This document shows positions 21,170 through 37,577 of a DNA stretch of 64,000 nt, one piece after another. The DNA comes from Lentzea aerocolonigenes (GTDB taxonomy: Bacteria; Actinomycetota; Actinomycetes; Mycobacteriales; Pseudonocardiaceae). Numbering within the stretch: position 1 is the first letter of the stretch; the number at the start of each line of letters is the position of its first letter. The position numbers and the translations under genes are program-made. Where the stretch lies: assembly GCF_000955955.1 (NCBI RefSeq), contig NZ_JYJG01000045.1, forward strand, positions 1 through 64,000. The letters run 5' to 3'. Under the pieces are notes generated by a model. That model searched no databases. It was not told the origin of the DNA and worked only from the letters and a program-made list of their open reading frames with translations.

Positions 21170-22001
21170 GGACGGTCACGGCCTCCCCCACCGCGTCGGA
21201 GTAGGCCTGGTCTGGCTGCTCGCGATCTTCAACATCGGTGTGCTGGCCTGGATGGGCCTCGCCGCGCTGCGGGAGCACACCGCGATCTTCAGCGACCCGT
21301 GGGGGCTGTCGACGTTCGGCGAGTTCGGCAACTTCCTCAAGGCGTGGGACGAGAGCGGATTCGGTGCGGCCACCCTGAACACCGTCGTACTCGTCGCCGG
21401 GTCCGCGGTGGTGCTGGTGGCGATCTCCGCACCGGCCGCGTACGCGCTGGCCCGCTCGGGCACGCGGATCTCCGGCGTGATGGCGCTCTTCTTCGCGCTG
21501 GGCATCGGAATTCCGGTCCAGGTCATCGTGATCCCGCTGTTCGTCATGCTGGAGAACATCGGACTGATCAACAGTCTCGTCGGGCTCTTCATCCTGTACG
21601 TCGCACTCTCGTTGCCCTTCACGGTCTTCCTGCTGACCGCGTTCTTCGGGTCGTTGCCGGAGGAGGTCGAGGAAGCCGCCGCGATCGACGGCGCGGGACC
21701 GTTGCGCACGTTCCTGCAGATCTCGCTGCCCCTGGCCCGCGGTGGGCTGATCACCGCGCTACTGCTCAACGCGATCGGGCTGTGGAACGAGACGTTCCTC
21801 GCGCTGGTGTTCATCCAGGACACCGATCTGCAGACACTCCCGTTGGCACTGCTCGGTTTCATGCAGAGCCAGCAGTACTCGGGCTCGGACTACGGCGCCC
21901 TGTTCGCCGGCGTCTGCATCCTGGTGCTGCCCATGTTGTTGCTCTACGTCTGGCTCGGCAGGCGGATCGTCGAGGGCATGACCCTCGGAGCCGTCAAGTA
22001 G
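21150..22001 (+). CDS. Sugar ABC transporter permease (MalG type)
   Basis: A 283-residue membrane permease. GTG at 21150 lies 20 bases inside the previous gene. The EAA loop is EEVEEAAAIDGAGPLRTFLQ, followed by ISLPLARGGLITALLLNAI. It forms the second half of the sugar channel. It is followed after 47 bases by a second binding-protein gene, probably in the same transcript. Confidence 0.9.
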   Translation: MLRFSSRDGHGLPHRVGVGLVWLLAIFNIGVLAWMGLAALREHTAIFSDPWGLSTFGEFGNFLKAWDESGFGAATLNTVVLVAGSAVVLVAISAPAAYALARSGTRISGVMALFFALGIGIPVQVIVIPLFVMLENIGLINSLVGLFILYVALSLPFTVFLLTAFFGSLPEEVEEAAAIDGAGPLRTFLQISLPLARGGLITALLLNAIGLWNETFLALVFIQDTDLQTLPLALLGFMQSQQYSGSDYGALFAGVCILVLPMLLLYVWLGRRIVEGMTLGAVK

Positions 22002-22048
22002 TACCCATCGTCGTTCCACAATGGACACAATCCGTTCGGGAGCACGCT

Positions 22049-23314
22049 TTGAGAACCCTGACTCGACGCCGCCTGCTCACAGCAGCGGTGATCGCGCCGG
22101 CCCTGGCCGCCTGCGGTGCGACAGCCCACGAGGCGACGTCGTTCACGTACTGGTCGATGTGGAAGGAGAACGAACCACAGGCGCACGTGCTCGCACAGGC
22201 GATCGCCGACTTCAAACGCGACACCGGCATCACGGTCGACGTCCGCTGGCAGGGACGCGAGGTGCTGACCAAGCTGGCGGACGACCGTGACGCGGTGCCG
22301 GACCTGGTGGACCAGGAGAACACGAAGGTCCGTGCGGCTCTGGTCGCGTCGCGCGGCTTCCGCGACCTCGCTCCGGTGCTCTCAGCGCAGGTACCGGGGA
22401 TGGGCCGCACCGTCGGCGAGTTGATCTCCCCCAAGTACCTGGAGTCGCTCCGGCAGGACGGTCAGATGTTCCTGATGCCGTACGAGGTCATCGGCCACGG
22501 CCTCTGGTTCGACGGCTCGGCGATGGCCGCAGTGGCCGACGAGCCTCCGAGGACGTGGAACGAGCTGGCCGCGTTGATGGCGAAGTGCAGGAAAGCGGGT
22601 CGCGCACCGATCGCACTGGACGCGGACATCTCCGGGTACGGCTCGTACTGGACGATCGGCGCGCTCCAGGGTGCTCTCGGGCCGGGAAAGGTCAGGGAGC
22701 TGGCTCGGGACAGAACGGGCCGCGCCTGGGAGAGACCTGATGTCCGTGAGGCGGTGACCAGAGTGAAGTCCTTTGTGGACCTGGGGTACTTCGACGCTCG
22801 GGCTGCCGACTCGCGCTGGCCGTCAGCTCAGCTGGACTGGGCCCGGCACAAGACCGACTTCCTGCTGATGGGCAGCTGGACACCCAGTGAGATCGGCCCG
22901 TCCGCGGTGCAGGGTTTCCAGTTCCGCTTCGTGCCGCTGCCTGGTGCGTCGACCGCGGTGCCGGTCAGCACCATCGGTTTCGCCATCCCGGCGACGGCCG
23001 GCCGGGCGTCACTGGCGGAGCGGTTCATCGCCCACTTCTTCAAGGACGGCACGCTCTCGAAGATCGCGACGGTCGCGAAGAACCTCACCCCGAACCCGGA
23101 GCTGCCCGCGCCCGACGACCTGGCGGACGTCGGCAGGGCACTGGCGGCCCTGCCCGTGTCCCAGCCGCTCGACGGCATCCTCGAGATCACCGGCTATGCC
23201 GCGGAGGTGTTCGAACCCGTCAACGACGAGCTGCTGAAGGGCAGGATCGACGTGGCGGGGTTCGTCGCGGAACTGGTGCGGCGGCAGGCCGACTACTGGC
23301 GCAAGAACAGCTGA
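22049..23314 (+). CDS. Second sugar-binding lipoprotein, paralogue of the first
   Basis: A 421-residue binding protein closely related to the one at 18912-20210; the start of the mature part is nearly identical (YWSMWKENEPQA), as is YEVIGHGLWF. TTG at 22049 is preceded by GGGAG. The signal peptide has TRRRLLTAAV before the lipobox ALAAC (C22), so it may be a Tat-type or Sec-type lipoprotein. A tandem duplication with divergence of the binding cleft would let one permease pair serve two sugars. No extra permease or ATPase follows. Confidence 0.87.
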   Translation: MRTLTRRRLLTAAVIAPALAACGATAHEATSFTYWSMWKENEPQAHVLAQAIADFKRDTGITVDVRWQGREVLTKLADDRDAVPDLVDQENTKVRAALVASRGFRDLAPVLSAQVPGMGRTVGELISPKYLESLRQDGQMFLMPYEVIGHGLWFDGSAMAAVADEPPRTWNELAALMAKCRKAGRAPIALDADISGYGSYWTIGALQGALGPGKVRELARDRTGRAWERPDVREAVTRVKSFVDLGYFDARAADSRWPSAQLDWARHKTDFLLMGSWTPSEIGPSAVQGFQFRFVPLPGASTAVPVSTIGFAIPATAGRASLAERFIAHFFKDGTLSKIATVAKNLTPNPELPAPDDLADVGRALAALPVSQPLDGILEITGYAAEVFEPVNDELLKGRIDVAGFVAELVRRQADYWRKNS

Positions 23315-23440
23315 GCCCGTCGAAGGCGAACTTGTAACCGGGACCGGTCCACGCCACGTCCGTCTTCACCACGCGTGAGCCCGAGGCCCCCTGCCGGGGA
23401 GCCTTCACCCCCGGACCCCATCGGCAGCCCCCAGTTGGGC

Positions 23441-23475
23441 GGTGTGGCCGCGCCCCCCTACGCCGCGGCCACACC
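23441..23475. terminator. Hairpin between convergent genes
   Basis: A perfect 12-bp stem (GGTGTGGCCGCG at 23441-23452 with its complement at 23464-23475) with an 11-base loop. It lies 126 bases after the second binding-protein gene and just beyond the end of the convergent membrane-protein gene, so it may serve both. Confidence 0.68.
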
Positions 23476-23480
23476 TGGCT

Positions 23481-23810
23481 CTACAACCGCACCAGCTTCA
23501 TCCCGGGGCTCTGCACCTCGGGGTTCGCCTCCTCGGCAGGCGTCTCCGCCGGTTCCGGCGACCGCAACGCCCTTCCGGTGGCGAAAATCGACTGCCAGGT
23601 GTCCCAGACGGCGATCAGCGCGGCCGACAGCACGACCGAAACCGCGACGGCGAGCACCCCGTCGTCGTCGAGGCGCACCACGGTGGCCACGACGGCCCAG
23701 ATCTCGACGGCGGTGAAGACGACCGCGAGCAGCACCCGTTCGGTGTGCTTGCGGCGGGCACGCGCCATCTGCTTGCGGGAGTTGGCTTCCGGCAACGGGT
23801 GGCGCTTCAT
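23481..23810 (-). CDS. Small two-helix membrane protein
   Basis: A 109-residue protein of unknown function. ATG at 23810 is preceded by AGGAG at 6 bases, which decides the start. A basic N-terminus (MKRHPLPEANSRKQMARARRKH) precedes two membrane segments (VLLAVVFTAVEIWAVVATVV and VLAVAVSVVLSAALIAVWDT). The C-terminus is acidic and Pro/Glu-rich. I do not recognise the family. It lies downstream of the Crp/Fnr gene on the same strand and may be co-transcribed with it. Confidence 0.65.
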   Translation of the reverse strand: MKRHPLPEANSRKQMARARRKHTERVLLAVVFTAVEIWAVVATVVRLDDDGVLAVAVSVVLSAALIAVWDTWQSIFATGRALRSPEPAETPAEEANPEVQSPGMKLVRL

Positions 23811-23878
23811 GACGGCTCCTGATGTGTCCTCGGCTTCTTGTCCACCAAGGAGAACGCCATCGAGCCGGAACGTTTGCG

Positions 23879-24547
23879 TCAAATGCCGCACAGGGACCGA
23901 AGTGCGTCCTCACGTAGAATTTCGACGCTGGTGCGGCGCGTCTCGATGATCCCCGCCTCCCGCAACGTCTTCAACGCCCGCACCAGAGTCTCGCGCGAGA
24001 TGCCCGCGATCCCTGCGAGTTCGCGCTGGCTGAGCGGCACCGTGGTGATCATGTCACTGGCCCCGCGGTGCGCGAGGTCGAGCAGCACGGCGGCCACCCG
24101 GTGCAACGAGGGCCCGGTCCGGAGGTCCTGCTGATCGCCCGTGGCACGCTGCCGCGACACCACGACGCACAACACCGCCCACACGATCTTCGGGTGTTCC
24201 TCGCAGAGCTTCTTCAAGGCCTGAGCGGAAATCACCATGCCGCTCACGGCGTCCACCGCGGTGACGGTCGAGGTACGGCCCCCGCCGTCGATGGCGGAAA
24301 GCTCACCGATGATCTCACCGGGCCCCCGGACCGCGAGCACGGCTTCCTCGCCGCTGAGGGTGAACCGGCTGACCCGCACCCGACCGTGCGACACGACCAG
24401 CATGTTCCGCGACCTGTCCCCCTGATGGCAGATCACCGATCCGGCCTCGAACGTCACGCGGGTCGCCGCGGCTCGCAGGGCCGCTTGGTCGGTGACGTCG
24501 AGTATCTCCCAGAACGACTGGTCGAGCCCCATACATCCATGATTCAC
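23879..24547 (-). CDS. Crp/Fnr-family transcriptional regulator
   Basis: The 222-residue product has an N-terminal cyclic-nucleotide-binding-like beta barrel (FEAGSVICHQGDRSRNMLVV, GPGEIIGELSAIDGG) and a C-terminal winged helix (PLSQRELAGIAGISRETLVRAL). The phosphate-binding cassette (GELSAIDGGGRTSTV) is Crp-like, so cAMP or a related nucleotide may be the ligand. No Fnr-type cysteine cluster is seen. GTG at 24547 gives the full barrel; ATG at 24532 is an alternative start. It is divergent from the cyclase-like VMAP gene, 341 bases away. Confidence 0.85.
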   Translation of the reverse strand: MNHGCMGLDQSFWEILDVTDQAALRAAATRVTFEAGSVICHQGDRSRNMLVVSHGRVRVSRFTLSGEEAVLAVRGPGEIIGELSAIDGGGRTSTVTAVDAVSGMVISAQALKKLCEEHPKIVWAVLCVVVSRQRATGDQQDLRTGPSLHRVAAVLLDLAHRGASDMITTVPLSQRELAGIAGISRETLVRALKTLREAGIIETRRTSVEILREDALRSLCGI

Positions 24548-24888
24548 GGATCAGGACGGCGGTCATTGCCCCGATCGATCTAATCCACCGGGTTCGAACC
24601 GGTGGTTGTAACGGCCGGCGCCGGCTTCCCGAAGATCCCGGCGGGTCACGCCGGTGGCCCTGCTCGTCCTATCGGCTGAATTCTCCGGCCGGGTGTGCCC
24701 ATCCGCTCGTTGGTACCGAGCGACAGCTGCTGTAGTTACCCCGCGGGGGCGTCTGCGGGGACGAGATGCCGAAGGGTGGAACCAGGCGTTGTGCGTCAAT
24801 CAGCGCACAGCCCGGCCGGTTGGTCTGGTACACGACGAATCGGGTCGCCGGCTGGTGCCGGCGTGACGTCGTGGAGGGAAGGACGGTC
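24548..24888. promoter_or_regulatory. Divergent promoter region of the Crp and VMAP genes
   Basis: This spacer separates the Crp/Fnr-type gene and the three-gene VMAP operon. I see no recognisable gene. CCGGCGCCGGC at 24614-24624 is a short palindrome. No clear TGTGA-N6-TCACA type Crp site is visible. A ribosome binding site (GGAGGGAAGG) precedes the GTG at 24889. Confidence 0.5.
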
Positions 24889-26658
24889 GTGTCGCTCTCA
24901 CCACCGACCGAGCACAGGACGATCGTCGTGGTCGACGTTGCGGAATTCACCCGTGAGGACAGAACGCTCGCGCATCAGCTCGCGGTGCAGGAGGGCCTGT
25001 ACGACGTGCTGAGGGCCGCGCTCGCCGCCGCCGGTGCCGATCCCGGCGGCTGCGTCATCGAGGATCGGGGTGACGGCGCCCTGATCCTGGTTCCGCCCTC
25101 CGTGTCGAAGAGCGAGCTCGCCGACAAACTGCCGGACCGCCTGGCCGCCGAGCTCCGCCGGTACAACGCGACTCACGATCCGGCGGCCCAGTTCAAGCTC
25201 AGGGTGGGGCTGCACGCAGGCGACATCCGCAGGAACGAGCACGGCTGGGTGGGCAACGCGGTGGTGCTGGCCTGCCGCATCCTCGACGCGGAGGAGGCGA
25301 AGGCGGAACTGCGCGGGTCGGGGCAACTGGTCGCGTTCATCGCCAGTGCCTACTTCTACGACGAGGTGATCGCGCAGGACCCGGCCAGCGCACCGGAGTC
25401 GTACCGCCGCATCGACGTCTCCGTGAAGTCGTACGAAGGGCACGCCTGGCTGCGGCTCCACGGCGGCGGCTGGGCGCCGAGTGCCGTGGCCGTACCCGAT
25501 GAGGACCTCCTCGTACGCGACCTGTTCCCCGGCGACGACTTGAAAGTCCTGCAAAGCCTCCTGTCGGGTGTGGAGACCGCACGCCTGCCGATGATCGTCA
25601 GCCGCGCCACGCACTCGGCGATTCCGGTACCCCGCTTTCGCTCCGTCTGGGACGCTTTTCTCCATCTGGCCGATGTCAACGCCGGCCCGGACGGAATTCC
25701 CCCTGCCCTCGAATTTCTGGCGCTGCTCGCCGCGGACCTCGGTGACGACAATGCCGCCGAGCTGGCGGCCTGGGTTGCGCAGAAGATTCACAATCTGCGA
25801 CGCACCGGCGAGCAACGGGAACGCCAGGCGGTCAGAATTCCGCTGCCCGCCGAACCGCGGCTGTACCTGATGATCATGATCGAGCTGGACGCGATCGACG
25901 ACAGCCAGTGTGTTCTTTCCTGGTGGCGTCAAGACGATCCGCTGGAGTGGCCGCCACTCCGCGGCGGGGTGTGCGAGCTGGCCGTGGACGAGCTGGAACA
26001 GCGAATCGACGACGTGATCGTCGAAGCCGAGGGCGCATGGTCCGACCAGGCTATTTCCGTCGCCCTGGAATTCGTCGTGCCCCGCCCGCTCCTGCAAATT
26101 CCGATCATGTCCTGGCGGAAGGAACACCGGTCGGGATACCCGAAACCTCTGGTATACGATTACCCGCTGGCGCTCAGGTCTCTGGAGCGAATGCGGTCCG
26201 CTCATTGGCATCGCCTGTGGCGCATGAGGTGGGACTCCGCTGCCGATGACAACATGTCGTTGCGGCGAATTCACCCGTACGGATCAGGGGAAACCAAGGA
26301 GAATCCGATCGACGCCGTGCTGAGTGAGACCACGTGGGTTGGGTTGGTCATGGACGAGCCACCTTCCGCGCATCCGGATCCGAGCGCCGGACCCGACGCG
26401 CTGACCGCCGCGTTGCGAAGTGGCGTGCCCTTGATCGTCTGGCACCCCCGGGCGACTGCCGAGGACCTGCGTGAGCTGGTGGGCCATCTGCTCAACGGTG
26501 GCGACATCGGCGGGGTGCCCGGCCGTCATCGCGAAGCCCACCTGGCCGCGACCGACCACGACCTCGTCCGGGATCTCGTGGTGCTGCTCGACGACCCGCA
26601 TCGGAAAATCGTTCCAGGCGGATCTCTTTCGCCGACGTCGAGTGGGGGCGCGAAATGA
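24889..26658 (+). CDS. VMAP protein: cyclase-like domain plus VMAP-C
   Basis: A 589-residue protein, first of three coupled genes. Residues 10-190 resemble class III nucleotide cyclases: VVVDVAEFT with metal Asp D16, EDRGDGALIL with D62, and RVGLHAGDI. In the VNxAAR-like stretch the Asn is Val (V126) and the Arg is kept (R130), so activity is uncertain. Residues from about 320 to the end match the C-terminal domain of vWA-MoxR-associated proteins (LPLPA-type strand, W-rich VLSWWRQDDPLEWPP, SLERMRSAHWHRLWRMRW, and the final ALRSGVPLIVWHPRATAEDL). Such proteins form a conflict/defence-type trio with MoxR and vWA proteins. Its stop overlaps the next start (ATGA). The start GTG follows GGAGGGAAGG. 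Confidence 0.75.
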   Translation: MSLSPPTEHRTIVVVDVAEFTREDRTLAHQLAVQEGLYDVLRAALAAAGADPGGCVIEDRGDGALILVPPSVSKSELADKLPDRLAAELRRYNATHDPAAQFKLRVGLHAGDIRRNEHGWVGNAVVLACRILDAEEAKAELRGSGQLVAFIASAYFYDEVIAQDPASAPESYRRIDVSVKSYEGHAWLRLHGGGWAPSAVAVPDEDLLVRDLFPGDDLKVLQSLLSGVETARLPMIVSRATHSAIPVPRFRSVWDAFLHLADVNAGPDGIPPALEFLALLAADLGDDNAAELAAWVAQKIHNLRRTGEQRERQAVRIPLPAEPRLYLMIMIELDAIDDSQCVLSWWRQDDPLEWPPLRGGVCELAVDELEQRIDDVIVEAEGAWSDQAISVALEFVVPRPLLQIPIMSWRKEHRSGYPKPLVYDYPLALRSLERMRSAHWHRLWRMRWDSAADDNMSLRRIHPYGSGETKENPIDAVLSETTWVGLVMDEPPSAHPDPSAGPDALTAALRSGVPLIVWHPRATAEDLRELVGHLLNGGDIGGVPGRHREAHLAATDHDLVRDLVVLLDDPHRKIVPGGSLSPTSSGGAK

Positions 26659-27731
26659 GCGTGCACGAACACCGAACAGACGGCCAGCGCGTTGGCATCG
26701 ATGCACCTGACTGGTGGATTTACCGCGGCACTGGGCGCGAAATCCACGACATCGACCTCGCCGAGATACTTCCGCCGCCACCGCCGTGGCGCGATTTCGA
26801 CGGCGGCCCGCTTCCGGAGAAGGATGTTCCGCCGGACGACGACGGTGAGGCCGATCGCAGGTTGGGACCGGAAATACACCTGGCCGAATCCGATGTCGAC
26901 GCGCACGAGCTGGACATGGTCAACGCGGCATTGTACCTGCGCAGGCCGCTTTTGCTGACCGGAAAGCCCGGCGTCGGGAAGTCGAGTCTGGCCTGGCGGA
27001 TTGCCAGAGAACTGCGGCTCGGACGAGTGCTCAGGTGGTCGATCACCAGTCGTACCACGCTGAATTCTGGTCTGTTCGATTATGACGCGATTGGCAGGGT
27101 TCAGGCCGCCGCTGCCGGTCAGGCCCGATCAGGTGGCGCCGAAGAAGCATCCATCGGCGAATTCGTCAGACTCGGCCCGCTGGGTACGGCGTTCTTGCCC
27201 AGCAGACTTCCGCGAGTTGTTCTGATCGACGAGCTGGACAAGTCCGAATCGGATCTCCCGAACGATCTGCTGAGCATTTTCGAGGACGGCGAGTTCGTCA
27301 TCCCGGAACTGGCTCGCGTGCGCAACCAGACGCGCGAGGTCACCGTCCACACCAACGATCCCAACGGCACGGCGACCGTCGTGGACGGCAGGGTCGGCTG
27401 TCGCGCGTTCCCGGTCGTCGTCATGACGAGCAACGGAGAGCGCGAGTTCCCGCCCGCGTTCCTGCGCCGGGTCCTGCAACTCGAGATCAAGGACCCGACG
27501 GTGGAGCAGTTGGCCGCCATGGTGGCCAACCACCTGTTGGACACCAAGGGCGAGCACCGCGAACGGCTGGTGCGCGAGTTCATCGAGAAGAGCCGCGCGG
27601 AGGGTGGGCTGCCAGCCGATCGCCTGCTGGACGCCGTTTTCCTCGCCACCTCGGGCGCGTACCAGCCGGACGACGTGTCGTGGCAGCGGCTGCTGAACGC
27701 CATCTGGCGCAGACTGACGACGGGGCAGTGA
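26655..27731 (+). CDS. MoxR-type AAA+ ATPase
   Basis: A 358-residue AAA+ ATPase. Walker A is GKPGVGKSSLAW (around residue 105), Walker B is VVLIDELDKSE, and a sensor region reads VVVMTSNGEREFPPAFLRRV with the arginine-finger-type RR. The N-terminal 80 residues are acidic and proline-rich. MoxR proteins remodel partner proteins, usually with a vWA partner. Start overlaps the VMAP stop by 4 nt, and one base separates its stop from the vWA gene, so the three are translated as a unit. Confidence 0.88.
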   Translation: MSVHEHRTDGQRVGIDAPDWWIYRGTGREIHDIDLAEILPPPPPWRDFDGGPLPEKDVPPDDDGEADRRLGPEIHLAESDVDAHELDMVNAALYLRRPLLLTGKPGVGKSSLAWRIARELRLGRVLRWSITSRTTLNSGLFDYDAIGRVQAAAAGQARSGGAEEASIGEFVRLGPLGTAFLPSRLPRVVLIDELDKSESDLPNDLLSIFEDGEFVIPELARVRNQTREVTVHTNDPNGTATVVDGRVGCRAFPVVVMTSNGEREFPPAFLRRVLQLEIKDPTVEQLAAMVANHLLDTKGEHRERLVREFIEKSRAEGGLPADRLLDAVFLATSGAYQPDDVSWQRLLNAIWRRLTTGQ

Positions 27732-27732
27732 C

Positions 27733-30700
27733 GTGGACGGCCTCGAGGGCTTGGACTGGCCCGAAGTAGCGGACGTGCTGTGGCTGGCCGCCGCGATGCG
27801 CGGCGGGACGACGGAGAGCCGCGACCAAGGCGATCCGGATCCGCCCGGCCCCGTGCTGCCAGAAGCCGTGAAGCCGGTACCCGCCGAGGCCGTGGATGAC
27901 GAGGCGCCTGTTCCCGACGCGCCGGTTTCGCATGAACCAGAACCCTTCCCCGCGGCGGCACCGGACGAAGTCGCCAGGACACCGCTTCCACGCCCGCCGA
28001 GCCTCGACGAGAACGGCCACCGGGATCTGCCACCGGCCGCCGCCGTGGTGCCCGGACTGGCCGAGACGCTGGAGTGCTTCAGGGCGTTGCGGCCGCTGAA
28101 GCGCGAGATCGCCTCTTTCCGGGACGGCGCAACGGTTCTGGACGAGGTCGCGACCGCGGAGCAGGTTGCGCGAACCGGCAGCTGGTGGCCGATCACCCGT
28201 TCGAGTCCGGAGCGTTGGCTCGATCTGACCGTCGTTTTGGACGACAGTCCCTCAATGTCGCTGTGGCGGCCGAAAGTCGTCGCATTCATGGAGATGCTCA
28301 CGCGACTGGGGGCCTTCCGCACGATCCAGTTCCGCTTGGTCGACGTCGTCCGCAACGAGGACGGCACGGAGGTTCCGGTTTTGCGCGGTGGTACGCCTGG
28401 CGCGCCCGCGCGTGACCCTGCCGAGGTGCTCGACGTCTCCGGACGCCGAGTCGTGCTGCTCGTGACCGACGGGGTCGGAGGCGTCTGGAAGCCGGGCCTG
28501 CTGAACCCGATGCTGGCTCGCTGGGCGCGGTCCATGCCGGTGAGCGTGCTGCACATGTTGCCCCAATGGCTCTGGGGCCGCGGCGCGGTACCGCTGCACC
28601 GGGCGAACCTCAGCGTGCCGGCCGCGTTGCGTCCCAACAGCCGCTGGACGTTCGACCTGCCCGATGCCTGGCTCGACGACGATCCGGCTGCGGCGCTGCG
28701 CGACGATGCCGTACCGGTGCCGGTGATCGAATTGCAACCTCGGTACCTGAGGTGGTGGGCGCGGCTGATCACGGCGGGGCACCGCCGCCCGGCCGGCGGC
28801 ACGGTGCTGCTGGTCACCCGCGAAACACGAGCCGTGCCGGATGACGACGTATCGGCAAAAGAGCACGTCGGCCGGTTCAGAAGCCTTGCCTCGCCGCCCG
28901 CTCTGCGTCTCGCGACGTTGCTCGCCGCGGTCCCGGCCAACCTCGAAGTCGTGAAACTCATTAGCCGGCGATTCGTCCCGGAGGCAGGACCGGAGCACGT
29001 CTCAGAATTGCTTATGAGCGGTCTGCTGGACTATTCTTCGGCTCCCAAAGACGACAAGTCCACCTGGGACTCCAGCACCTTTGTCTTTCCCGAGAAAGTA
29101 CGTGAGCTGCTGCTCAACGGCGCTCGCCGGTCCGAGACCGCGGGCGTCGTGCGAACGGCTGCGGCCGAATTCGGGGAGCACATTCCGGCACTCGGGCGTC
29201 TCATGGAAGCGATAGCGGACCCGGACAACACGCCGGACCCGGTGCCCTCTAGTTCCAACGCTGCCGAAGTCGGGCTGCAGCGTGCGGTGATGGGGGCGTT
29301 GTCAGGGCCTTACCTGTCGCGCGCGGATCGGCTGAGGAATGCGGTGGCACGCGACGTCGTGCCATCTTCTGAATCAATAAAGTCAACAAGGATGGCGAGC
29401 AAGGACATGCCCGATACGGCCGAGCGCCCCAGCAAGTCGACGGTATCCGATCCACAGGCGCATTCCGTATCGGCCGCGGTGTATTCCGCCGGGTCGCGCG
29501 ATGTCGGCCTTCCTGAGACGAGCGGTATGACGGTTCATCCCGCATTGAGTTCGCGAACGTTTCACGAACGAAGGTCGGATGATCCGCCGATCGTCTGGGG
29601 AAATGTGCCGCCGCGAAACCCGAACTTCACCGGGCGCGTGGAACTGCTGGAGCAGCTCGGCAAACGTCTGACCGCAGGAGGCGCCACCGCGGTTCTCCCG
29701 TCCGCGCTGCACGGCATGGGCGGTATCGGCAAGACCCAGATGGCGACCGAGTACATCTACCGCCATCTGCAGGACTACGACCTCATCTGGTGGATCGAGG
29801 CGGCCCGCCCGACCCAGATCCGCGCCGGCCTCACCGAACTGGCGCGTCAGCTCGGGCTGCCCGGTGCCTCCGACGCGAACACCGCCGTGCCCGCCGTGCG
29901 CGAGGCGCTGCGCGTCGGCCGTCCGTTCCGCCGCTGGCTGCTCGTCTTCGACGCGGCCGAGAGCCCGGAGGAAGTGCGCCCGTTCTTCCCGGCCAACGGT
30001 CCCGGCGAAGTGCTGATCACCTCCCGCAACCCGGACTGGGCCGGCGTGGCCCGTCCGCTGGAGCTCGCGGTGTTCGACCGCTCGGAGAGCATCGAGCTGC
30101 TCGGCAAACGCGGCCCGGAGATCGACGAGGGCGACGCGAACGTGCTGGCGGAGAAGCTGGGCGACCTCCCCCTCGCCATCGAGCAGGCGGCGGCCTGGCG
30201 CGCCGTCACCGGCATGCCGGTGAGCGAGTACCTGCGGCTGTTCGACGAGTCCGTCGCGGAAATCCTCGACACGTCCGCCCCGACTGACTACGACCTCTCG
30301 GTCGCCGCCGCCTGGAACGTGTCGTTCGACGAGCTGAAGACGAGAAACCCGGCGGCACACCAGATTCTGCACATCTGCGCCTTCTTCTCGCCGGAACCGA
30401 TCTCGCGCGACCTGTTCACCGGGGTCAGCCGGGTGTCGATCTCCCCGGAGCTGGACGCCGCCCTGCGCGACCCGATCAAGCTCGCGAGGGCCATCCGCGA
30501 CATCAACCGCTACGGGCTCGCGAAGATCGACCACGGCAACAACACCTTGCAGCTGCACCGGTTGGTCCAGTTGGTGCTGCGCAACCGGACCATGGCGCCG
30601 CAGGTGCACGCGCAGATGATGCACGGCGCGCACCAGCTACTCGCCAGTCTCGACCCCAACGACCCCGAGTCGAGCCGGCACTGGCCGCGCTACCGCGAGC

Positions 30701-32070
30701 TGCTGCCGCACGCCTACGCGTCCGACATCGTCGACTGCGACGACAGCTGGCCACGGCAGCTCATCATCAACCTGATGCGCTTCCTCTCCGCCTGGGGCGA
30801 CCACGAGGAGGCCGCGCGCGTCGCCGAGCGCGCGAGCGAGAAGTTCGAGCGCAAGCTGGGACCCACTCATCCGCAGACGCTGGAAGTGGCCTCACGGCTC
30901 GGTTTCTACCTGTGGGGCGTGGGGCGGTACGAGGAAGCCTCGCGGGTCAACCAGCTCACCCTGCAGCGCCAGATCGAAGTGTCCGGAGAGGACAGTGAAG
31001 AGGCACTCGCACTGCAGACCAACATCGTGATCGACTACCGGGCGCAGGGCGACTTCGCGTCCGCCGCGAAACTGAGCGAGGAGATCTACCACAAGTCCAA
31101 GCGGCTGTTCGGCGAGGACGATCCCGAGGCTCTCAACGCGGCGTACCAGCACGGCATCAGCCTCCGGCTGTCCGGTGAGTACCTGGCGGCGGCCGAGCTC
31201 GACCTCGACACCGCCGACCGCAGGAGCAAGGTGCTGGGCCCCGACCACCAGAGGACGCTCAGCAGCTACGCCTCGGAGATCGTCGACCGGCGCGAGGCGG
31301 GTGACTACCTGCGGGCGCGGATCGACCAGGAGAAGTTCACCGAGGTGTTCCGGGCGCGGTTCCCCGCGGACCACCCGGAGCAGGCGACTTTCTCGTTCCT
31401 CCTGTCGGTGGCGAGGCGCAAGGACGGCGACCACGCACGGGCGCTGGAGCTGTCCACGCCGGCGCTCGCCCAGTTCAGCCTCCTCTACGGACCCGACCAC
31501 GAGACCAGAATGGCGTGTGCCCTGGCGCATTCGATCGACCTTCGCCACTCGGGAGACCTGGCCGGGGCGAAGAAGCTGGGCGAGGACACGTTCGAGCGGT
31601 ACCGGCGTGGTCTCGGGGAAGCCCATCCCCACGCCATCGCGGCGACGGTCGACCTGGCGGTGACGATGCGGCTCAAGGGAGAGACGGCGGAGGCGAGGGT
31701 GCTCGACGAACGGGCGCTGGAACTCTTCCGCAGTGGTCTCGGTCCGAACCACCCCTACGCGATCGTCGCCACGGTCAACCTGGCGAGCGACCTAGCGGCT
31801 CTGGGCGAGACCGAGCGCGCGATCGCGCTGGGCCAGGACGCCGTGGAGCGCGGCGGGCGAGTGCTCGGCGCCAACCATCCCACCGTGCTCGCCGCGGCGC
31901 TCAACCTCGGCCACGACCTGCGGGCGGCAGGCCGGGAGGAGGAAGCCGCGCCCTACCGCGATCCTGTGGTGGACCGGTACCGCAAGGTGCTGGGCGAGGC
32001 GCACCCCGGAACCATCGCGGCGGCCAAGGGGATGCGGGCCAACTGCGACATCGACCCGTTGCTGATGTAG
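27733..32070 (+). CDS. vWA (SAV_2336-type)-NB-ARC-TPR protein of FxSxx-COOH type
   Basis: A 1445-residue multidomain protein. Residues 1-30 are hydrophobic/helical (LDWPEVADVLWLAAAMRG), followed by a Pro/Glu-rich linker to about 100. Residues 100-350 form the SAV_2336-type vWA domain, with a MIDAS-like DDSPSMS around residue 170. A Ser/Thr-rich linker leads to an NB-ARC-like STAND NTPase with Walker A GMGGIGKTQMA (about 662-675) and the GLPL-like DLPLAIEQAAAWR. From about residue 1000, tetratricopeptide repeats run to the end. This order matches the TPR protein associated with FxSxx-COOH peptides. MoxR probably remodels the vWA part. NTPase-TPR pieces act as sensors or scaffolds in such systems. 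A partner FxsA-like gene lies in the convergent operon. Confidence 0.8.
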   Translation: MDGLEGLDWPEVADVLWLAAAMRGGTTESRDQGDPDPPGPVLPEAVKPVPAEAVDDEAPVPDAPVSHEPEPFPAAAPDEVARTPLPRPPSLDENGHRDLPPAAAVVPGLAETLECFRALRPLKREIASFRDGATVLDEVATAEQVARTGSWWPITRSSPERWLDLTVVLDDSPSMSLWRPKVVAFMEMLTRLGAFRTIQFRLVDVVRNEDGTEVPVLRGGTPGAPARDPAEVLDVSGRRVVLLVTDGVGGVWKPGLLNPMLARWARSMPVSVLHMLPQWLWGRGAVPLHRANLSVPAALRPNSRWTFDLPDAWLDDDPAAALRDDAVPVPVIELQPRYLRWWARLITAGHRRPAGGTVLLVTRETRAVPDDDVSAKEHVGRFRSLASPPALRLATLLAAVPANLEVVKLISRRFVPEAGPEHVSELLMSGLLDYSSAPKDDKSTWDSSTFVFPEKVRELLLNGARRSETAGVVRTAAAEFGEHIPALGRLMEAIADPDNTPDPVPSSSNAAEVGLQRAVMGALSGPYLSRADRLRNAVARDVVPSSESIKSTRMASKDMPDTAERPSKSTVSDPQAHSVSAAVYSAGSRDVGLPETSGMTVHPALSSRTFHERRSDDPPIVWGNVPPRNPNFTGRVELLEQLGKRLTAGGATAVLPSALHGMGGIGKTQMATEYIYRHLQDYDLIWWIEAARPTQIRAGLTELARQLGLPGASDANTAVPAVREALRVGRPFRRWLLVFDAAESPEEVRPFFPANGPGEVLITSRNPDWAGVARPLELAVFDRSESIELLGKRGPEIDEGDANVLAEKLGDLPLAIEQAAAWRAVTGMPVSEYLRLFDESVAEILDTSAPTDYDLSVAAAWNVSFDELKTRNPAAHQILHICAFFSPEPISRDLFTGVSRVSISPELDAALRDPIKLARAIRDINRYGLAKIDHGNNTLQLHRLVQLVLRNRTMAPQVHAQMMHGAHQLLASLDPNDPESSRHWPRYRELLPHAYASDIVDCDDSWPRQLIINLMRFLSAWGDHEEAARVAERASEKFERKLGPTHPQTLEVASRLGFYLWGVGRYEEASRVNQLTLQRQIEVSGEDSEEALALQTNIVIDYRAQGDFASAAKLSEEIYHKSKRLFGEDDPEALNAAYQHGISLRLSGEYLAAAELDLDTADRRSKVLGPDHQRTLSSYASEIVDRREAGDYLRARIDQEKFTEVFRARFPADHPEQATFSFLLSVARRKDGDHARALELSTPALAQFSLLYGPDHETRMACALAHSIDLRHSGDLAGAKKLGEDTFERYRRGLGEAHPHAIAATVDLAVTMRLKGETAEARVLDERALELFRSGLGPNHPYAIVATVNLASDLAALGETERAIALGQDAVERGGRVLGANHPTVLAAALNLGHDLRAAGREEEAAPYRDPVVDRYRKVLGEAHPGTIAAAKGMRANCDIDPLLM

Positions 32071-32076
32071 GAGGAC

Positions 32077-33891
32077 TCATCCGGAGACGAGCTGGCCGAG
32101 CCACCAGGCGAGCGTCTCCGGAGTAGGTACGTCACGTGCGGTGCGCCGGAGTTCACGGTGCACCGCACGCACCATTTCAGGGCAGTGCAGCAACGCGCGT
32201 GCGGCCGGGTTGGGTCCGGCCCCGTTGAGGGCGAGTCCCAGCCCGACGAGTGACGCCGGCCGGTCGGGATCCTCGCGCAGCTCCGCGCGGTAGCTCCGGG
32301 CGGCGTCGGCGCGGCGGCCGGTCGCCAGCGCGTAGTCCGCGTAGGTGGCGCCGGGAACCTCCGGCCACAGCTCGTGCACGTCCTTGCTCCCGCGTTTGCC
32401 CAAACCGAGGCGTACCAACGTGGCACGGCTGCGCGACCACGGTCCGTCCGGCACCGGCGTCGGCGGGAGGTCGGGCGGGGACAGGACGACCGGCGGCCTC
32501 GCCCGACCGGCCAGCCAGGCGTCGGCCGCCGTGGAGACCATCGCGGGATCGGGACGCAGATGCCGCAGCCTCCACCCCGCCCGGTGGTCGGACGCGAGCA
32601 GCTCGGTCAGGTCCAGGACGTCCTCGGGCACCGGTTCGTGTCGCCACGGTTCGAGCACCTCCGCGACACCGGCGAGAAACCGTTGCCCGGCTTCGGTCAG
32701 CGTCGAATCGCGGCGCAGAGTCCGGAGGGTGCGCCAGGTCTGGTCGCGCCAGTAGGCGAACTCGAACCAAGCGCGCCGCGACTCGCCGCTCTCGGACTGA
32801 GCCGTCCTGCGCCAGAACGCGGTCACGCCGAAGAACGCGTAGACACCCGTGAGTGCTCCGCCGAGAGGCCGGGGGTCGTCGCGCCACGGCACGTAAATCC
32901 GCTCTGTGCGGTCGTTTTCGTAGAGCTGTGTCAGGTGGAGGATGCCCCCCAGCACGATGTGCTGGAACTCGTGCACCAACGTCGCGGCGAGGTCGAACGC
33001 GTCCACCGGCAGCCCGATCACCGCGCTGCCGAAGGCCTCACCGGTCGACGCGCTCGGGGTCTGGAAAGGCACGTTCGGCTTGGGTACCAACGAATCCAGG
33101 CCGGAGGCGACCATTCCGGCGAGCTCAGGAGTGGCGTCGAGCAGGAGTGCCCAGGCTTCGCCCAGCAGCCGCCGCCACGTGCCGACCTCGGCTGCCTCCA
33201 GGCGTTCCGGTGGCAACGGCTCGTGCAGACCGCGATAGGGATCGAGGTCGTCCAGCGTCACCGAAAGCCGATTCCTTTCCGCGCCCATGCCGCACGAGCG
33301 CAGGGCCCACCAGCCGGGGGCATCGGAGTCGAGCCTGACAGGCAGCCGGACCTCACCGTTCTCGCCGGATACCGTGTAGCGGCCGCGTCGTCCTCGCACC
33401 TCGGCTGTCGAGAACCGGGCCCTGGCCGGCAACCGAGCCGTCCCGAGCGAGGGCAGGACCGCGTTGCCGTCCCACAGCGGCACGGAGATCTCGAAGTCCA
33501 GATCGGCCGTGATCGCCGCGGCTGCCGCGAGCGCGTGCACGTGGCCGACGTGAATCCACAGTGGACAAACGCCGTCGGCGCCGTGTGCCAGCAACCGGGT
33601 CGTGTAGCCGGCCCAGCTTCCGGTGTACGGGTGCGCGAACGCGCGGTCGAGCGAAGCGGGCGACACGTTCTCGACCCGCGCGAGCAGGTCCCACACCGCT
33701 TCGAGCGGAGGCAACGAGCCATACGCCCCCGGCGTTTTCGCGGAGGATTCGAGTAACGCGTGCACCAACAGTTTTCGTCTGCTGAGTTCGGCTCCGCGCA
33801 ACCGGCCGATCATCGACGCATCACCGCGGAGGCGCGCGAAGGCGTCGAAATCACCCCACGACATGCGGTGGAACGGGGTGGAATACGGCAT
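32077..33891 (-). CDS. HExxH-motif peptide modification enzyme
   Basis: A 604-residue protein of the HExxH putative peptide-modification family. The signature is H307-E308-F309-Q310-H311 in DLAATLVHEFQHIVLGG. It has no CxxxCxxC cluster, so it is not fused to a radical SAM domain. The N-terminus (YSTPFHRMSWGDFDAFARLRG) fits the family start. The C-terminal part resembles short TPR helices (YADYALATGRRADAARSYRAEL). In fused FxsB-type enzymes, I recall this domain as a 2-oxoglutarate-dependent beta-hydroxylase; the same role here is inference. The start codon is 2 bases after the FxsA-like gene, so the two are coupled. Its stop lies 6 bases from the convergent TPR gene stop. Confidence 0.8.
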   Translation of the reverse strand: MPYSTPFHRMSWGDFDAFARLRGDASMIGRLRGAELSRRKLLVHALLESSAKTPGAYGSLPPLEAVWDLLARVENVSPASLDRAFAHPYTGSWAGYTTRLLAHGADGVCPLWIHVGHVHALAAAAAITADLDFEISVPLWDGNAVLPSLGTARLPARARFSTAEVRGRRGRYTVSGENGEVRLPVRLDSDAPGWWALRSCGMGAERNRLSVTLDDLDPYRGLHEPLPPERLEAAEVGTWRRLLGEAWALLLDATPELAGMVASGLDSLVPKPNVPFQTPSASTGEAFGSAVIGLPVDAFDLAATLVHEFQHIVLGGILHLTQLYENDRTERIYVPWRDDPRPLGGALTGVYAFFGVTAFWRRTAQSESGESRRAWFEFAYWRDQTWRTLRTLRRDSTLTEAGQRFLAGVAEVLEPWRHEPVPEDVLDLTELLASDHRAGWRLRHLRPDPAMVSTAADAWLAGRARPPVVLSPPDLPPTPVPDGPWSRSRATLVRLGLGKRGSKDVHELWPEVPGATYADYALATGRRADAARSYRAELREDPDRPASLVGLGLALNGAGPNPAARALLHCPEMVRAVHRELRRTARDVPTPETLAWWLGQLVSG

Positions 33892-33893
33892 GA

Positions 33894-34085
33894 TCAGTCG
33901 ATTCGCTCACCACCCGACGAGCTGGTGCTTCTGTAGCCCTGGCTCACGAGACCGGTGCGCTCGACGACGTGCCGCAGCGATCGCCGGAGCAGGTCGCTGT
34001 CGAGATCGCGCAACCTGGTGAACGGAACGCCTTCGAGGTCGATCAGCGCGGATTCCAGGTCCGGCTCCAAGCCCGATGAGCTCAT
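33894..34085 (-). CDS. FxsA-like RiPP precursor with altered C-terminus
   Basis: A 63-residue peptide resembling FxSxx-COOH proteins: the leader part reads ALIDLEGVPFTRLRDLD then SDLLRRSLRHVVERT. Typical members end with F-x-S-x-x at the carboxyl terminus. Here the corresponding motif is Y51-R52-S53, and ten more residues follow (TSSSGGERID). The Phe is thus Tyr, and the motif is not terminal. ATG at 34085 was chosen because AGGGG lies upstream; a GTG at 34103 would place that site inside the gene. It precedes the HExxH enzyme by 2 bases and is probably its substrate. No radical SAM gene is in the neighbourhood. Confidence 0.72.
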   Translation of the reverse strand: MSSSGLEPDLESALIDLEGVPFTRLRDLDSDLLRRSLRHVVERTGLVSQGYRSTSSSGGERID

Positions 34086-34280
34086 GGTGTCGATTCCCCT
34101 CACGCCGAGTGCCGGTCGGTGCAGGCAATCCCATGATGGCGCAACAACGACGCGTTCAGGTAGGCCGATACCTTGCGTTTCCCTGCGCCGAAACGACCAG
34201 TGGTTGCAGAGGTGAGCCGTCGTCGGCGCTGCTGGCCTGGAATTGGACAGGAAATGGAAACCTTTTGGCCAGCACCGCTT

Positions 34281-35426
34281 TCAGCGGCGCCGGCGCACCG
34301 CCGCGACGGCTTCGGCGATGCGCGCGTCGAACGCGGCGAGCTGCTCGGCCTCGGCGGGATCGGGAACGAACGGGCGACGCTCGCAGGCCGTGCCGCCGCG
34401 CCAGATCCGTTCGATGCCGCGCACAGCGGAGATGTCCGTCAGCGGATCTCCTGACACGAGAACCAGATCCGCGCGCTGCCCGACCGCGACACGTCCCCGG
34501 TCCGCGAGGCCGAACACCTGTGCAGGAGAGGAAGTCGCGGCAGCCAGGGCCTGCGCCGGGCTGAGACCGCACCGGACGAGCAGCTCCAGTTCCCGATGCA
34601 GGCTTGCGCCGAACTCGGTCCCGGGGTTCGGGGCGTCGGTGCCCGCCAGCAGCGTGACTCCCGTGTCCACCAGCCGCCGCACGTTGTCCTGCGCCCGCGA
34701 ATACGGCCGGCTGCTCGCTCCGAGAGTGTTCTCGACGGTGGCGAGCGTCGGCCCCACCGCGATTCCGGCCATGCGCTCGACCAGAGAACCAGGCAGCTCC
34801 GCGTCCAACGGGATGTGCGCCACCACGTCGGCACCGGCGGACACGACCTCTTCGAGACCGGCCGTCGAGCTCACGTGGGCGACGACGACCAAGCCGCGCG
34901 AGTGCGCCGCCGTGACCAGCGCCGTGATGGTCGAGGGGTCCAGCGACGGCCACCGGCCACCGACGCCGGAGAAGATCTTCAGGTAGTCCGAGCCCTCGGC
35001 GATCCGGTCCGACACGAACCGCGAGGCCTGGTCAGCGGCGGTCAGCGTCGGGAACGGGTCGTACATCATCGACGGGTGGCCGCCGGGCGCGGTGGCACCG
35101 ACACCCGCCGACCGCACGTCCGCCGCGTCGGCACCACGAGCTCGCTCCCGCGCGGCGGCCACGACGTCCGGCATGCTGAACATGTCGAGCACGGTGGTGA
35201 CGCCGCAGTTCAGCGACTGGACGAGAGCGCCGGGAACGAGGTGCACGTGGGAGTCGATCAGACCGGGCAGCACGGTCCCGCCCGCCGCGTCCACGACCTC
35301 GTCGCCGGCATGGGCGCCGGAGCCGGCCGAGCACTCGGTGATCAGCCCGTCCGCGAACCGGACAGAGGTCCAGTCCCGCGACGTCGTCCCGTCGAACACC
35401 CGCGCGTTCACGATCGTCGTCGCCAC
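34281..35426 (-). CDS. Amidohydrolase family protein
   Basis: A 381-residue metal-dependent hydrolase of the imidazolonepropionase/prolidase-like amidohydrolase group. Metal motif HVHL lies in VLPGLIDSHVHLVPG. Other ligands are seen in VVVAHVSSTAGL, DVVAHIPLD, and the aspartate of LLAGTDAPNPGTEFG. The C-terminus has the family ending with GRVAVGQRADLVLVSGDPL. No signal peptide is seen with GTG at 35426, which has no clear ribosome binding site. It is divergent from the methyltransferase, only 14 bases apart. The substrate is unknown. Confidence 0.82.
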   Translation of the reverse strand: MATTIVNARVFDGTTSRDWTSVRFADGLITECSAGSGAHAGDEVVDAAGGTVLPGLIDSHVHLVPGALVQSLNCGVTTVLDMFSMPDVVAAARERARGADAADVRSAGVGATAPGGHPSMMYDPFPTLTAADQASRFVSDRIAEGSDYLKIFSGVGGRWPSLDPSTITALVTAAHSRGLVVVAHVSSTAGLEEVVSAGADVVAHIPLDAELPGSLVERMAGIAVGPTLATVENTLGASSRPYSRAQDNVRRLVDTGVTLLAGTDAPNPGTEFGASLHRELELLVRCGLSPAQALAAATSSPAQVFGLADRGRVAVGQRADLVLVSGDPLTDISAVRGIERIWRGGTACERRPFVPDPAEAEQLAAFDARIAEAVAAVRRRR

Positions 35427-35440
35427 GGTAGGAGTGAACC

Positions 35441-36067
35441 ATGACCGATCGCAGCGCCCGCTGGCAGCAGTACTGGGACCGGAAGTCCGCGACCTACGAC
35501 GCGGAAATGGGTTTCCTGGACCGGAAACTCTTCGGCGACTCGCGCAGGTGGGCGTGCTCGCAGGCATCAGGCGAGGTGCTGGAGGTCGCCATCGGCACCG
35601 GGCTGAACCTGCCGCACTACCCCGAGGACGTCACGCTCACCGGCATCGACCTCAGCGAGCAGATGCTCGGCCTCGCCCGGGCTCGCGCCCACGACCTGCG
35701 GCACGGGGTGACCCTGCGGCAGGGCACAGCGCACGCCCTCCCGTTCGGCGACGCGGAGTTCGACACGGTCGTGTGCACCCTGGGCCTGTGCGCGATCCCG
35801 GACCACGAGACCGCGATCGCCGAGATGATCAGGGTGCTGAAGCCCGGCGGCCGGTTGATCCTCGTCGACCACGTGGAGAGCTCGTCCCGGATCGCGCGCG
35901 CACTGCAGTGGCTCGTGGAACGGGTGACGATTCCGATGGCGGGAGAGCACTTCCTGCGCCGGCCACTGCGTCTGGTGCAGGCGCACCAGCTGCAGGTCGA
36001 ACAGCGGCAACGGTTCAAGCTCGGTCTGGTGGAACGGCTCGTGGCGAGGAAGGCCAGCGGACAGTAA
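35441..36067 (+). CDS. Class I SAM-dependent methyltransferase
   Basis: A 208-residue methyltransferase. It has the SAM-binding loop VAIGTGLNLPHY, the acidic loop LTGIDLSEQMLGLA, and motif IV FDTVVCTLGLCAI, and resembles the UbiE/phospholipid N-methyltransferase-like group. ATG is preceded by TAGGAGTG at a good distance. The substrate is unknown; the basic, amphipathic C-terminus (LQWLVERVTIPM) could allow membrane contact. It may be co-transcribed with the VOC gene 30 bases downstream. Confidence 0.85.
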   Translation: MTDRSARWQQYWDRKSATYDAEMGFLDRKLFGDSRRWACSQASGEVLEVAIGTGLNLPHYPEDVTLTGIDLSEQMLGLARARAHDLRHGVTLRQGTAHALPFGDAEFDTVVCTLGLCAIPDHETAIAEMIRVLKPGGRLILVDHVESSSRIARALQWLVERVTIPMAGEHFLRRPLRLVQAHQLQVEQRQRFKLGLVERLVARKASGQ

Positions 36068-36097
36068 CTGTCCGCATTCGGTGAGACGCTCCCGCGC

Positions 36098-36448
36098 ATG
36101 ATCGGACGATGGCACGGCCTGGTGATCGACTGTCCCGACCCGCGGGCCCTCGCGGGGTTCTACGAGAAGCTGCTCGGCATGACCCGCGTGCAGGACGACC
36201 CCGGCTGGGTCGTCATCGGCGACGCACCCGACCGCCCCGGTGTCGCCTTCGCGCGGGTGACCGGCTGGACACCACCCGCGTGGCCGGGCGAATCAGCGCA
36301 CATGCACTTCGACATTCGCGTGGACGATCGCAAAACTGCAGGTCAGAGGGTTCTTGAGCTGGGCGCGCGCAAGCTCGAGGGCGGCGGCGAGTCGTTCGAC
36401 GTCTACGCGGATCCTGCCGGACACCCGTTCTGTTTGGTGGCCTGGTAG
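36098..36448 (+). CDS. VOC-family (glyoxalase-like) protein
   Basis: A 116-residue protein with the vicinal-oxygen-chelate fold: LVIDCPDPRALAGFYEKLLG near the start, HMHFDIRVDD in the middle, and DPAGHPFCLV at the end. Such proteins act as dioxygenases, isomerases or resistance/binding proteins. The short length means one subunit with two babab halves, usually dimeric. The role here is unknown. Confidence 0.85.
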   Translation: MIGRWHGLVIDCPDPRALAGFYEKLLGMTRVQDDPGWVVIGDAPDRPGVAFARVTGWTPPAWPGESAHMHFDIRVDDRKTAGQRVLELGARKLEGGGESFDVYADPAGHPFCLVAW

Positions 36449-36503
36449 CCGCACTTCATCGGCCGTGCATTGCCTGGACGCGGCGACCGGGCATTATGCG
36501 CAA

Positions 36504-37484
36504 ATGACACTCCGGCAGGCGAGCGACTTCGCCCAGTTGTCCACCGAGATCAAGCAGGCCGGCCTGCTGGCTCGGCGGCGCGGTTACTACCTCGCGCGGA
36601 TCACCGCGAACCTGGTGGTCTACGCGGGCGCGTGGGTGGCGTTCGCCTTGCTCGGGGACTCGTGGTGGCAGCTCGCCGTGGCGGTCGTGCTGGCCGTCAT
36701 GACGACGCAGCTGGCGTTCATCGGGCACGACGCCGGCCACAAGCAGATCTTCACGGCGAAGCGGTGGAACCTGCTCACCGGTTACGTCCACAGCGGGCTC
36801 ATCGGCGTCAGCCACGACTGGTGGGTGAGCAAGCACAACCGCCACCACGCCAACCCGAACCACGAGGACGAGGACCCGGACGTCGACATCTCGGTGCTGG
36901 CGTTCACGCAGAAGCAGGGCGAGTCCAAGCGCGGCCCGCTGCGGTGGATCGCCTCGCACCAGGCGGCGTTGTTCTTCCCGTTGCTGTTCCTCGAAGGCTA
37001 CGCACTGCACTGGCACTCGATCCGGCACTCGGGCCGTGAGCGCTTCCTGATGATCGCGAACGTCGTCGTCTACCTGGCCGCGGTGTTCTGGGTCCTCTCC
37101 CCCGTCTACGCGGTCGCGTTCATCCTGGTGCACCAGGGTCTGTGGGGCTTCTACATGGGCTGTTCCTTCGCCCCCAACCACAAGGGCATGCCGGTGCTGT
37201 CGGCCGGGCACACCCTCGACTTCCTCCGCAAGCAGGTGCTGACCTCGCGCAACGTCCGCGGCGGCTGGTTCACCGACTTCCTGCTCGGCGGGCTGAACTA
37301 CCAGATCGAGCACCACCTGTTCCCGAGCATGCCGCGCCCGGCCCTGAAGCACGCGCAGCTGATCGTCAGCGAGTTCTGCGAGAAGCACCAGATCTCCTAC
37401 GCGCAGTGCGGCTTGTTCCGGTCGTACGGGTACGTGCTGGAGTACCTGCACGAGGTCTCGGCACCGATGCGCAAACCCGCCTGA
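36504..37484 (+). CDS. Membrane fatty-acid desaturase
   Basis: A 326-residue integral-membrane desaturase. Three histidine boxes are present: HDAGH, HNRHH, and the Gln-type third box QIEHH, which bind the di-iron centre. The third-box Gln is typical of front-end (delta-5/6-type) and acyl-lipid desaturases. Membrane helices flank the boxes. There is no cytochrome b5 domain, so ferredoxin or another carrier must supply electrons. ATG at 36504 is followed by a normal N-terminus; the longer frame overlaps the VOC gene and was rejected. It likely tunes membrane fluidity. Confidence 0.87.
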   Translation: MTLRQASDFAQLSTEIKQAGLLARRRGYYLARITANLVVYAGAWVAFALLGDSWWQLAVAVVLAVMTTQLAFIGHDAGHKQIFTAKRWNLLTGYVHSGLIGVSHDWWVSKHNRHHANPNHEDEDPDVDISVLAFTQKQGESKRGPLRWIASHQAALFFPLLFLEGYALHWHSIRHSGRERFLMIANVVVYLAAVFWVLSPVYAVAFILVHQGLWGFYMGCSFAPNHKGMPVLSAGHTLDFLRKQVLTSRNVRGGWFTDFLLGGLNYQIEHHLFPSMPRPALKHAQLIVSEFCEKHQISYAQCGLFRSYGYVLEYLHEVSAPMRKPA

Positions 37485-37502
37485 TTGTCCAAAAGTGGAC
37501 AA
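37485..37502. promoter_or_regulatory. TTGTCCA-N4-TGGACAA inverted repeat
   Basis: A perfect 7-bp inverted repeat with a 4-base centre starts right after the desaturase stop codon and 75 bases before the secreted metalloprotease gene. It could be a small terminator or an operator of the protease gene. Confidence 0.45.
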
Positions 37503-37577
37503 AGGCTGACCAAAACGCTCGTCCACGACCGTGAGCGCTGGTTTCCTCGGTGGTAGACCGAACTGGGGGAACCTCAT

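Follow-up and report, generated by a model that had tools for sequence, protein, structure and literature searches.

Conflict systems that combine VMAP, MoxR-ATPase and vWA proteins are described in the main text of Kaur, Burroughs, Iyer and Aravind (2020; PMC7159879). According to that text they are widespread in multicellular bacteria, and about 20% of the actinobacterial VMAP systems carry a peptide-processing pair, with tails of FxSxx, RxD, acidic or FtsH-associated type. In the RxD and acidic types, the vWA protein carries a fused AP-ATPase with TPRs. Among the nucleotide-signal domains of VMAP, cyclases are given as the most frequent, CRP-like genes are present in some cases, and the HExxH protein of the pair is treated as a metallopeptidase. 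We analysed a window of 64,000 nucleotides of Lentzea aerocolonigenes (contig NZ_JYJG01000045.1, positions 1 to 64,000; the source assembly, GCF_000955955.1, has 648 contigs and 10.2 Mb), in which a VMAP-MoxR-vWA operon faces a precursor-HExxH pair. Judging from sequence, we consider it about 95% probable that the locus belongs to the RxD-type VMAP-ternary conflict systems, with a modified peptide built in. Its features are as follows:

23879..24547, minus strand: CRP-like regulator, divergent from VMAP (Pfam cNMP_binding 72.4 bits, HTH_Crp_2 65.6 bits)
24889..26658, plus strand: VMAP with a class III cyclase-like N-terminus, VMAP-M0 and VMAP-C (Pfam)
26655..27731, plus strand: MoxR-type AAA+ ATPase (Pfam AAA_5 36.6 bits)
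27733..32070, plus strand: vWA-NTPase of 1445 residues, a SAV_2336/vWA part (8-484) fused to an FxSxx_TPR-family NB-ARC/TPR part (625-1443) (NCBIfam)
32077..33891, minus strand: alpha-ketoglutarate (aKG)-HExxH-type enzyme with a C-terminal TPR-like part (residues 483-604)
33046-33048, minus strand: codon for Thr348 of that enzyme (position by arithmetic)
33894..34085, minus strand: precursor peptide of 63 residues with C-terminus GGERID-COOH (from the translation)

The plus-strand trio runs VMAP, MoxR, vWA from 5′ to 3′, the gene order of VMAP-ternary systems, and the convergent stops of the vWA-NTPase and HExxH genes are 6 bases apart. An earlier note on this DNA had proposed such an operon opposite a precursor-HExxH pair, and gene order and domain matches confirmed it. 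The VMAP start (GTG at 24889) was chosen by eye; the longest open reading frame (ORF) begins at 24766. The VMAP-C domain scored 110.9 bits (cut-off 27; Pfam), and the predicted VMAP model (m17ea7f44805f; predicted local distance difference test score 76.0, predicted template modelling score 0.61) has a class III cyclase fold across residues 7-190. MoxR has both Walker A and Walker B, and its N-terminal motifs WxhapG and PsWRxa appear as WWIYRG at 20 and PPWRDF at 43, respectively. The vWA-NTPase matched SAV_2336_NTERM with 402.2 bits over residues 8-484 (NCBIfam). Its vWA domain has both expected aspartates, in the DxSxS motif of strand 1 (DDSPS at 170) and in strand 4 (LLVTDG at 242); the literal pattern [D/E]xxx[D/E]xxxa was not found in the vWA N-terminal extension. 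The NB-ARC P-loop is intact (GMGGIGKT), and this AP-ATPase with C-terminal TPRs is fused to vWA as in the RxD type.

The precursor tail is of RxD type as well. All 13 close orthologues of full length, among them the window precursor, keep GGERID unaltered, although 7 of the 14 positions preceding it vary; the set excludes P0137, a 97-residue match with a different C-terminus. The earlier note had called the precursor FxsA-like. We rejected this assignment, because the peptide ends in GGERID, has no C-terminal FxSxx and scored 17.5 bits against TIGR04268, whose cut-off is 28. Six orthologues (P0126, P0129, P0130, P0132, P0133 and P0134) carry a precomputed Pfam label, PF27839.1, which our Pfam search of the window precursor did not return. 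Among 112 distinct enzyme-linked precursors, 52 end in R-x-D-COOH, 15 follow a VQxQ pattern and 45 have other ends. At the position preceding R, the 52 RxD precursors have E in 27 cases, K in 11, G and Q in 5 each, A in 2, and S and R in 1 each; the x of R-x-D is I in 24, V in 16, A in 4, F and L in 3 each and C in 2. FxSxx tails are absent from this count because FxSxx precursors lie mostly on the opposite strand; the 32 enzymes for which no same-strand precursor was matched include many FxSxx loci. VQxQ-tail precursors were observed beside HExxH genes at L035-L039, L042, L043, L046, L051, L052, L054, L059 and L068. This tail falls outside the four types that the main text of PMC7159879 lists, and the hydroxylation of Gln by PosC/PflC, as given in excerpts of PMC12636437, may bear on it. 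Eight Streptomyces loci (L177, L178, L180, L182-L184, L186 and L187) have two HExxH enzymes each, on opposite strands, and two distinct precursors, with tails such as AERFD and NPQRDE.

The enzyme matched TIGR04267 with 178.6 bits (cut-off 40) and has HEFQH at 307, placing it in the aKG-HExxH family. Its predicted fold is shared with ChlH (8s5f) and SjiH; no paper about SjiH was among the literature matches listed. The fold of the window enzyme thus points to an Fe/alpha-ketoglutarate HExxH oxygenase and questions the published metallopeptidase label. The closest match with a named organism, a Lentzea protein, is 82% identical in the enzyme and 89% in the precursor. The enzyme very probably acts on the window precursor. 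The Gln/His position of the family (348 in the window enzyme) was considered as a marker of RxD peptides and rejected: RxD tails accompany both Gln enzymes (40) and His enzymes (12), which makes the difference look like one of descent.

Coupling of the two operons, also claimed in the earlier note, is well supported by linkage, by a compact relative and by joint decay. The window fits the RxD type of PMC7159879, so the accompanying claim that the pairing is undescribed fails; it is in print in the main text of that paper. Among 150 genomes of the same family, 64 had HExxH genes and 44 had VMAP-C; the two were linked in 40 of the 41 genomes having both (Fisher p 8e-17), which bears out the co-occurrence of homologues that the note had proposed to check. 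Here as elsewhere, p values are without correction for kinship. Counted by place, 51 of 63 VMAP-C places lay within 12 kb of an HExxH gene, which was convergent in 46 cases and shared the strand in 5; VMAP-C was nearby in 50 of 101 HExxH places. The rows kept over the cut-off were 101/105 for HExxH, 63/69 for VMAP-C (two of these come from a single broken gene, and a few more are short) and 61/73 for SAV_2336 (one of them just under the cut-off).

A second set, of 76 distinct loci, was obtained via an alignment of the enzyme's close relatives (best 80 of 423) and therefore describes this clade; it overlaps the 150-genome set. An NB-ARC/TPR ORF was found opposite the enzyme in 69 of these loci (58 with a gap ≤100 bases) by a script count that includes negative gaps, one of which, -9130, is no true neighbour. 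The partner ORF also matched the vWA region in 64 loci, and a recount placed the gap between -38 and 92 bases in 55. The very short tail-to-tail gap, at 32068-32080 in the window, recurs in this set and could mean antisense overlap of both operons. Five flanking ORFs, including an amidohydrolase (34281-35567) and a solute-binding protein (21299-23314), were rejected as members of the system: each recurs in 0 of 76 loci, which puts the unit borders at about 23879 and 34085.

In Lentzea cavernae (L083 and L151) the system is decayed: a precursor was sought and not found, the HExxH, VMAP and vWA genes are broken, and MoxR and CRP are free of stops. In L151 the HExxH gene matches only piecewise, with its middle part missing, two stops interrupt VMAP, and the vWA reading frame is split. 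Genes from both operons have decayed together, as expected if they form one system. Carriers included no phage record and 4 of 72,556 plasmid records, all at <60% identity; this near-absence led us to reject phages or plasmids as main carriers.

Judged by domain matches across loci, the FxSxx_TPR-family NB-ARC/TPR NTPase is the steadier partner of the enzyme. Its fusion partners are vWA in the window, EAD2 and VMAP-M0 in L168 and a cyclase domain in L103; L171 has the NTPase without a vWA match. L103 (6629-11926, genome G032) is the compact relative mentioned above: one protein combines the cyclase domain, in two copies by eye, with NB-ARC/TPR, and its gene faces an HExxH gene and a precursor-like ORF. 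No match for VMAP-C, MoxR or vWA was found in the L103 stretch. The genome of the window encodes a second FxSxx_TPR protein (L112, 4552-7236), on an 11-kb contig in which no precursor or HExxH match was found.

CRP relatives occur in 21 of the 76 loci (21 of the 45 with a cyclase and none of the 31 without), where they take three different placements. Two Asp and an Arg, at positions that we take to be catalytic for the cyclase, are kept in 42 of 42 sequences; the Asn position is N in 17 of 42 and Val in the window. Alignment of the CRP-VMAP intergenic region revealed conserved blocks, and no CRP-type palindrome was recognised there by eye. Control of the locus by a cyclic-nucleotide-responsive CRP is a reading that we slightly favour. 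In such a scheme, a trigger would cause the cyclase domain to make a cyclic nucleotide, and the CRP-like protein would switch the locus.

The steps that might follow can be outlined tentatively. The HExxH enzyme would bind the conserved precursor leader and oxidise the residue before R-x-D, Glu60 of GGERID; we give even odds to oxidation at or next to this residue. Because the Glu60 side chain is large, we propose that the backbone would be left whole. The modified tail would remain cytosolic and serve as a ligand of the NB-ARC/TPR NTPase, a role whose chances we judge as evenly balanced, and ATPase work by MoxR would remodel the VMAP-vWA complex and set a threshold for freeing the NTPase. A TPR carboxylate clamp reads EEVD-COOH, and a vWA metal site reads an acidic ligand; both are analogies for tail reading. 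The suggestion in the earlier note that the peptide is sensed or deployed through the NTPase is consistent with this evidence. Excerpts of PMC12636437 report that PosC/PflC act on Ala of ARMD with oxidative cleavage, and that Gln or Val at that position leads to hydroxylation and no cleavage; PesO hydroxylates the Pro preceding R(V/T)DN (excerpts of PMC13060819). By analogy, we predict cleavage in those relatives where Gly or Ala precedes R-x-D. The whole may amount to a bacterial NLR-like switch licensed by an oxidised self-peptide, with hydroxylation just before a C-terminal R-[ILV]-D-COOH, the tail read by the TPR or the vWA metal site, cyclase and CRP setting expression, MoxR the threshold, and an x-R-x-D logic shared with PosC/PflC and PesO. 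This full scheme is speculative, and we regard it as unlikely to hold in every part. If an NLR-like NTPase does indeed take the oxidised peptide as its ligand, RiPP (ribosomally synthesized and post-translationally modified peptide) chemistry and bacterial immunity would be joined in one locus.

Several observations weigh against the conflict system with a modified peptide, or against parts of it. L154, L155 and L157 combine an R-x-D tail and the enzyme, and no NB-ARC/TPR match was found within 10 kb. (In L154-L157, all from Streptomyces, the HExxH gene with RxD-like tails stands opposite a gene of about 330-380 codons; three of these four genes were scanned, those of L154, L156 and L157, and gave no Pfam or NCBIfam match.) The Val at the Asn position makes cyclase activity in the window doubtful, CRP is absent from 24 of the 45 cyclase-bearing loci, and L107, of the other genome set, has CRP and no cyclase match. 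PosC tolerates a single Ala at R, M or D (excerpts of PMC12636437), which suggests that conservation of the tail may serve some reader other than the enzyme. Finally, Thr348 occurs in the window enzyme alone: the other members of a set of 120 proteins have Gln (117) or His (2), and Thr was unique to the window in two further, overlapping sets of 59 and 91 locus ORFs. Thr348 may weaken or alter the activity of the window enzyme. A pseudo-enzyme that binds the precursor without modifying it, to chaperone or deliver it, is nevertheless very unlikely, since HExxH, WRDDPRP and the fold are all intact and, outside position 348, the enzyme shares 82% identity with a Lentzea relative carrying Gln there.

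The role stated for the pair in the main text of PMC7159879 is peptide release, in which a zincin metallopeptidase cuts the precursor and the freed C-terminal peptide acts as a toxin or signal, amplifying the core system. HExxH is common to zincins, and PflC shows hydrolytic, proteolytic activity when the leader is missing (excerpts of PMC12636437), a further point against a purely oxidative role. A short tail would likewise be freed by oxidative cleavage at a Gly or Ala preceding R-x-D; such a residue is present in 7 of the 52 RxD precursors. We nevertheless consider release improbable as the role of the pair, since the fold points to an oxygenase. A regulatory or housekeeping signalling pair, for example in developmental cyclic-nucleotide signalling, would fit the co-occurrence of cyclase and CRP. 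It would also fit the lack of a recognised nuclease, TIR or membrane-active effector domain among the window genes of the unit (Pfam, NCBIfam), for which PADLOC returned nothing beyond weak AAA matches of MoxR to IetA. However, the patchy distribution, the existence of several tail types and the decayed Lentzea copy look more like conflict genes, as does the fast divergence of VMAP and vWA noted in the main text of PMC7159879. We regard a purely signalling role, outside conflict, as rather unlikely. A conflict role, for example in anti-phage defence, stands at about one chance in two. Searches on VMAP, conflict, peptide-processing and anti-phage terms yielded, in the partial texts returned, no experimental test of a VMAP-system peptide.

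FxSxx-COOH RiPP systems (TIGR04268, NF040586 and TIGR04267) share the TPR NTPase and HExxH families with the window, and the precursor leader region is weakly related; the window precursor differs in having no FxSxx C-terminus, and, unlike in those systems, no radical SAM gene was found among the window genes scanned (21299 to 39449). PosC/PflC and PesO, compared by their description in excerpts of PMC12636437 and PMC13060819, belong to the same aKG-HExxH family and target the residue just before R-x-D. Unlike the window, their clusters contain MNIO and other tailoring genes, and the PesO substrate has Asn after R-x-D whereas the window precursor ends at Asp. The window enzyme differs from these enzymes and ChlH in its TPR-like tail and Thr348. 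With the RxD-type VMAP system, as described in the main text of PMC7159879, the window has in common the gene order VMAP-MoxR-vWA, the AP-ATPase/TPR-vWA fusion, a cyclase on VMAP, an adjoining HExxH gene, a small R-x-D precursor and a CRP-like gene, and no difference in kind was found. What goes beyond that main text is the occurrence of CRP in three placements and the form without VMAP in L103. Our analysis extends the unit to its CRP-like regulator and questions the metallopeptidase label; to a kind of system described in outline in 2020 it adds a likely chemistry, a link to CRP and an NTPase partner that stays constant.
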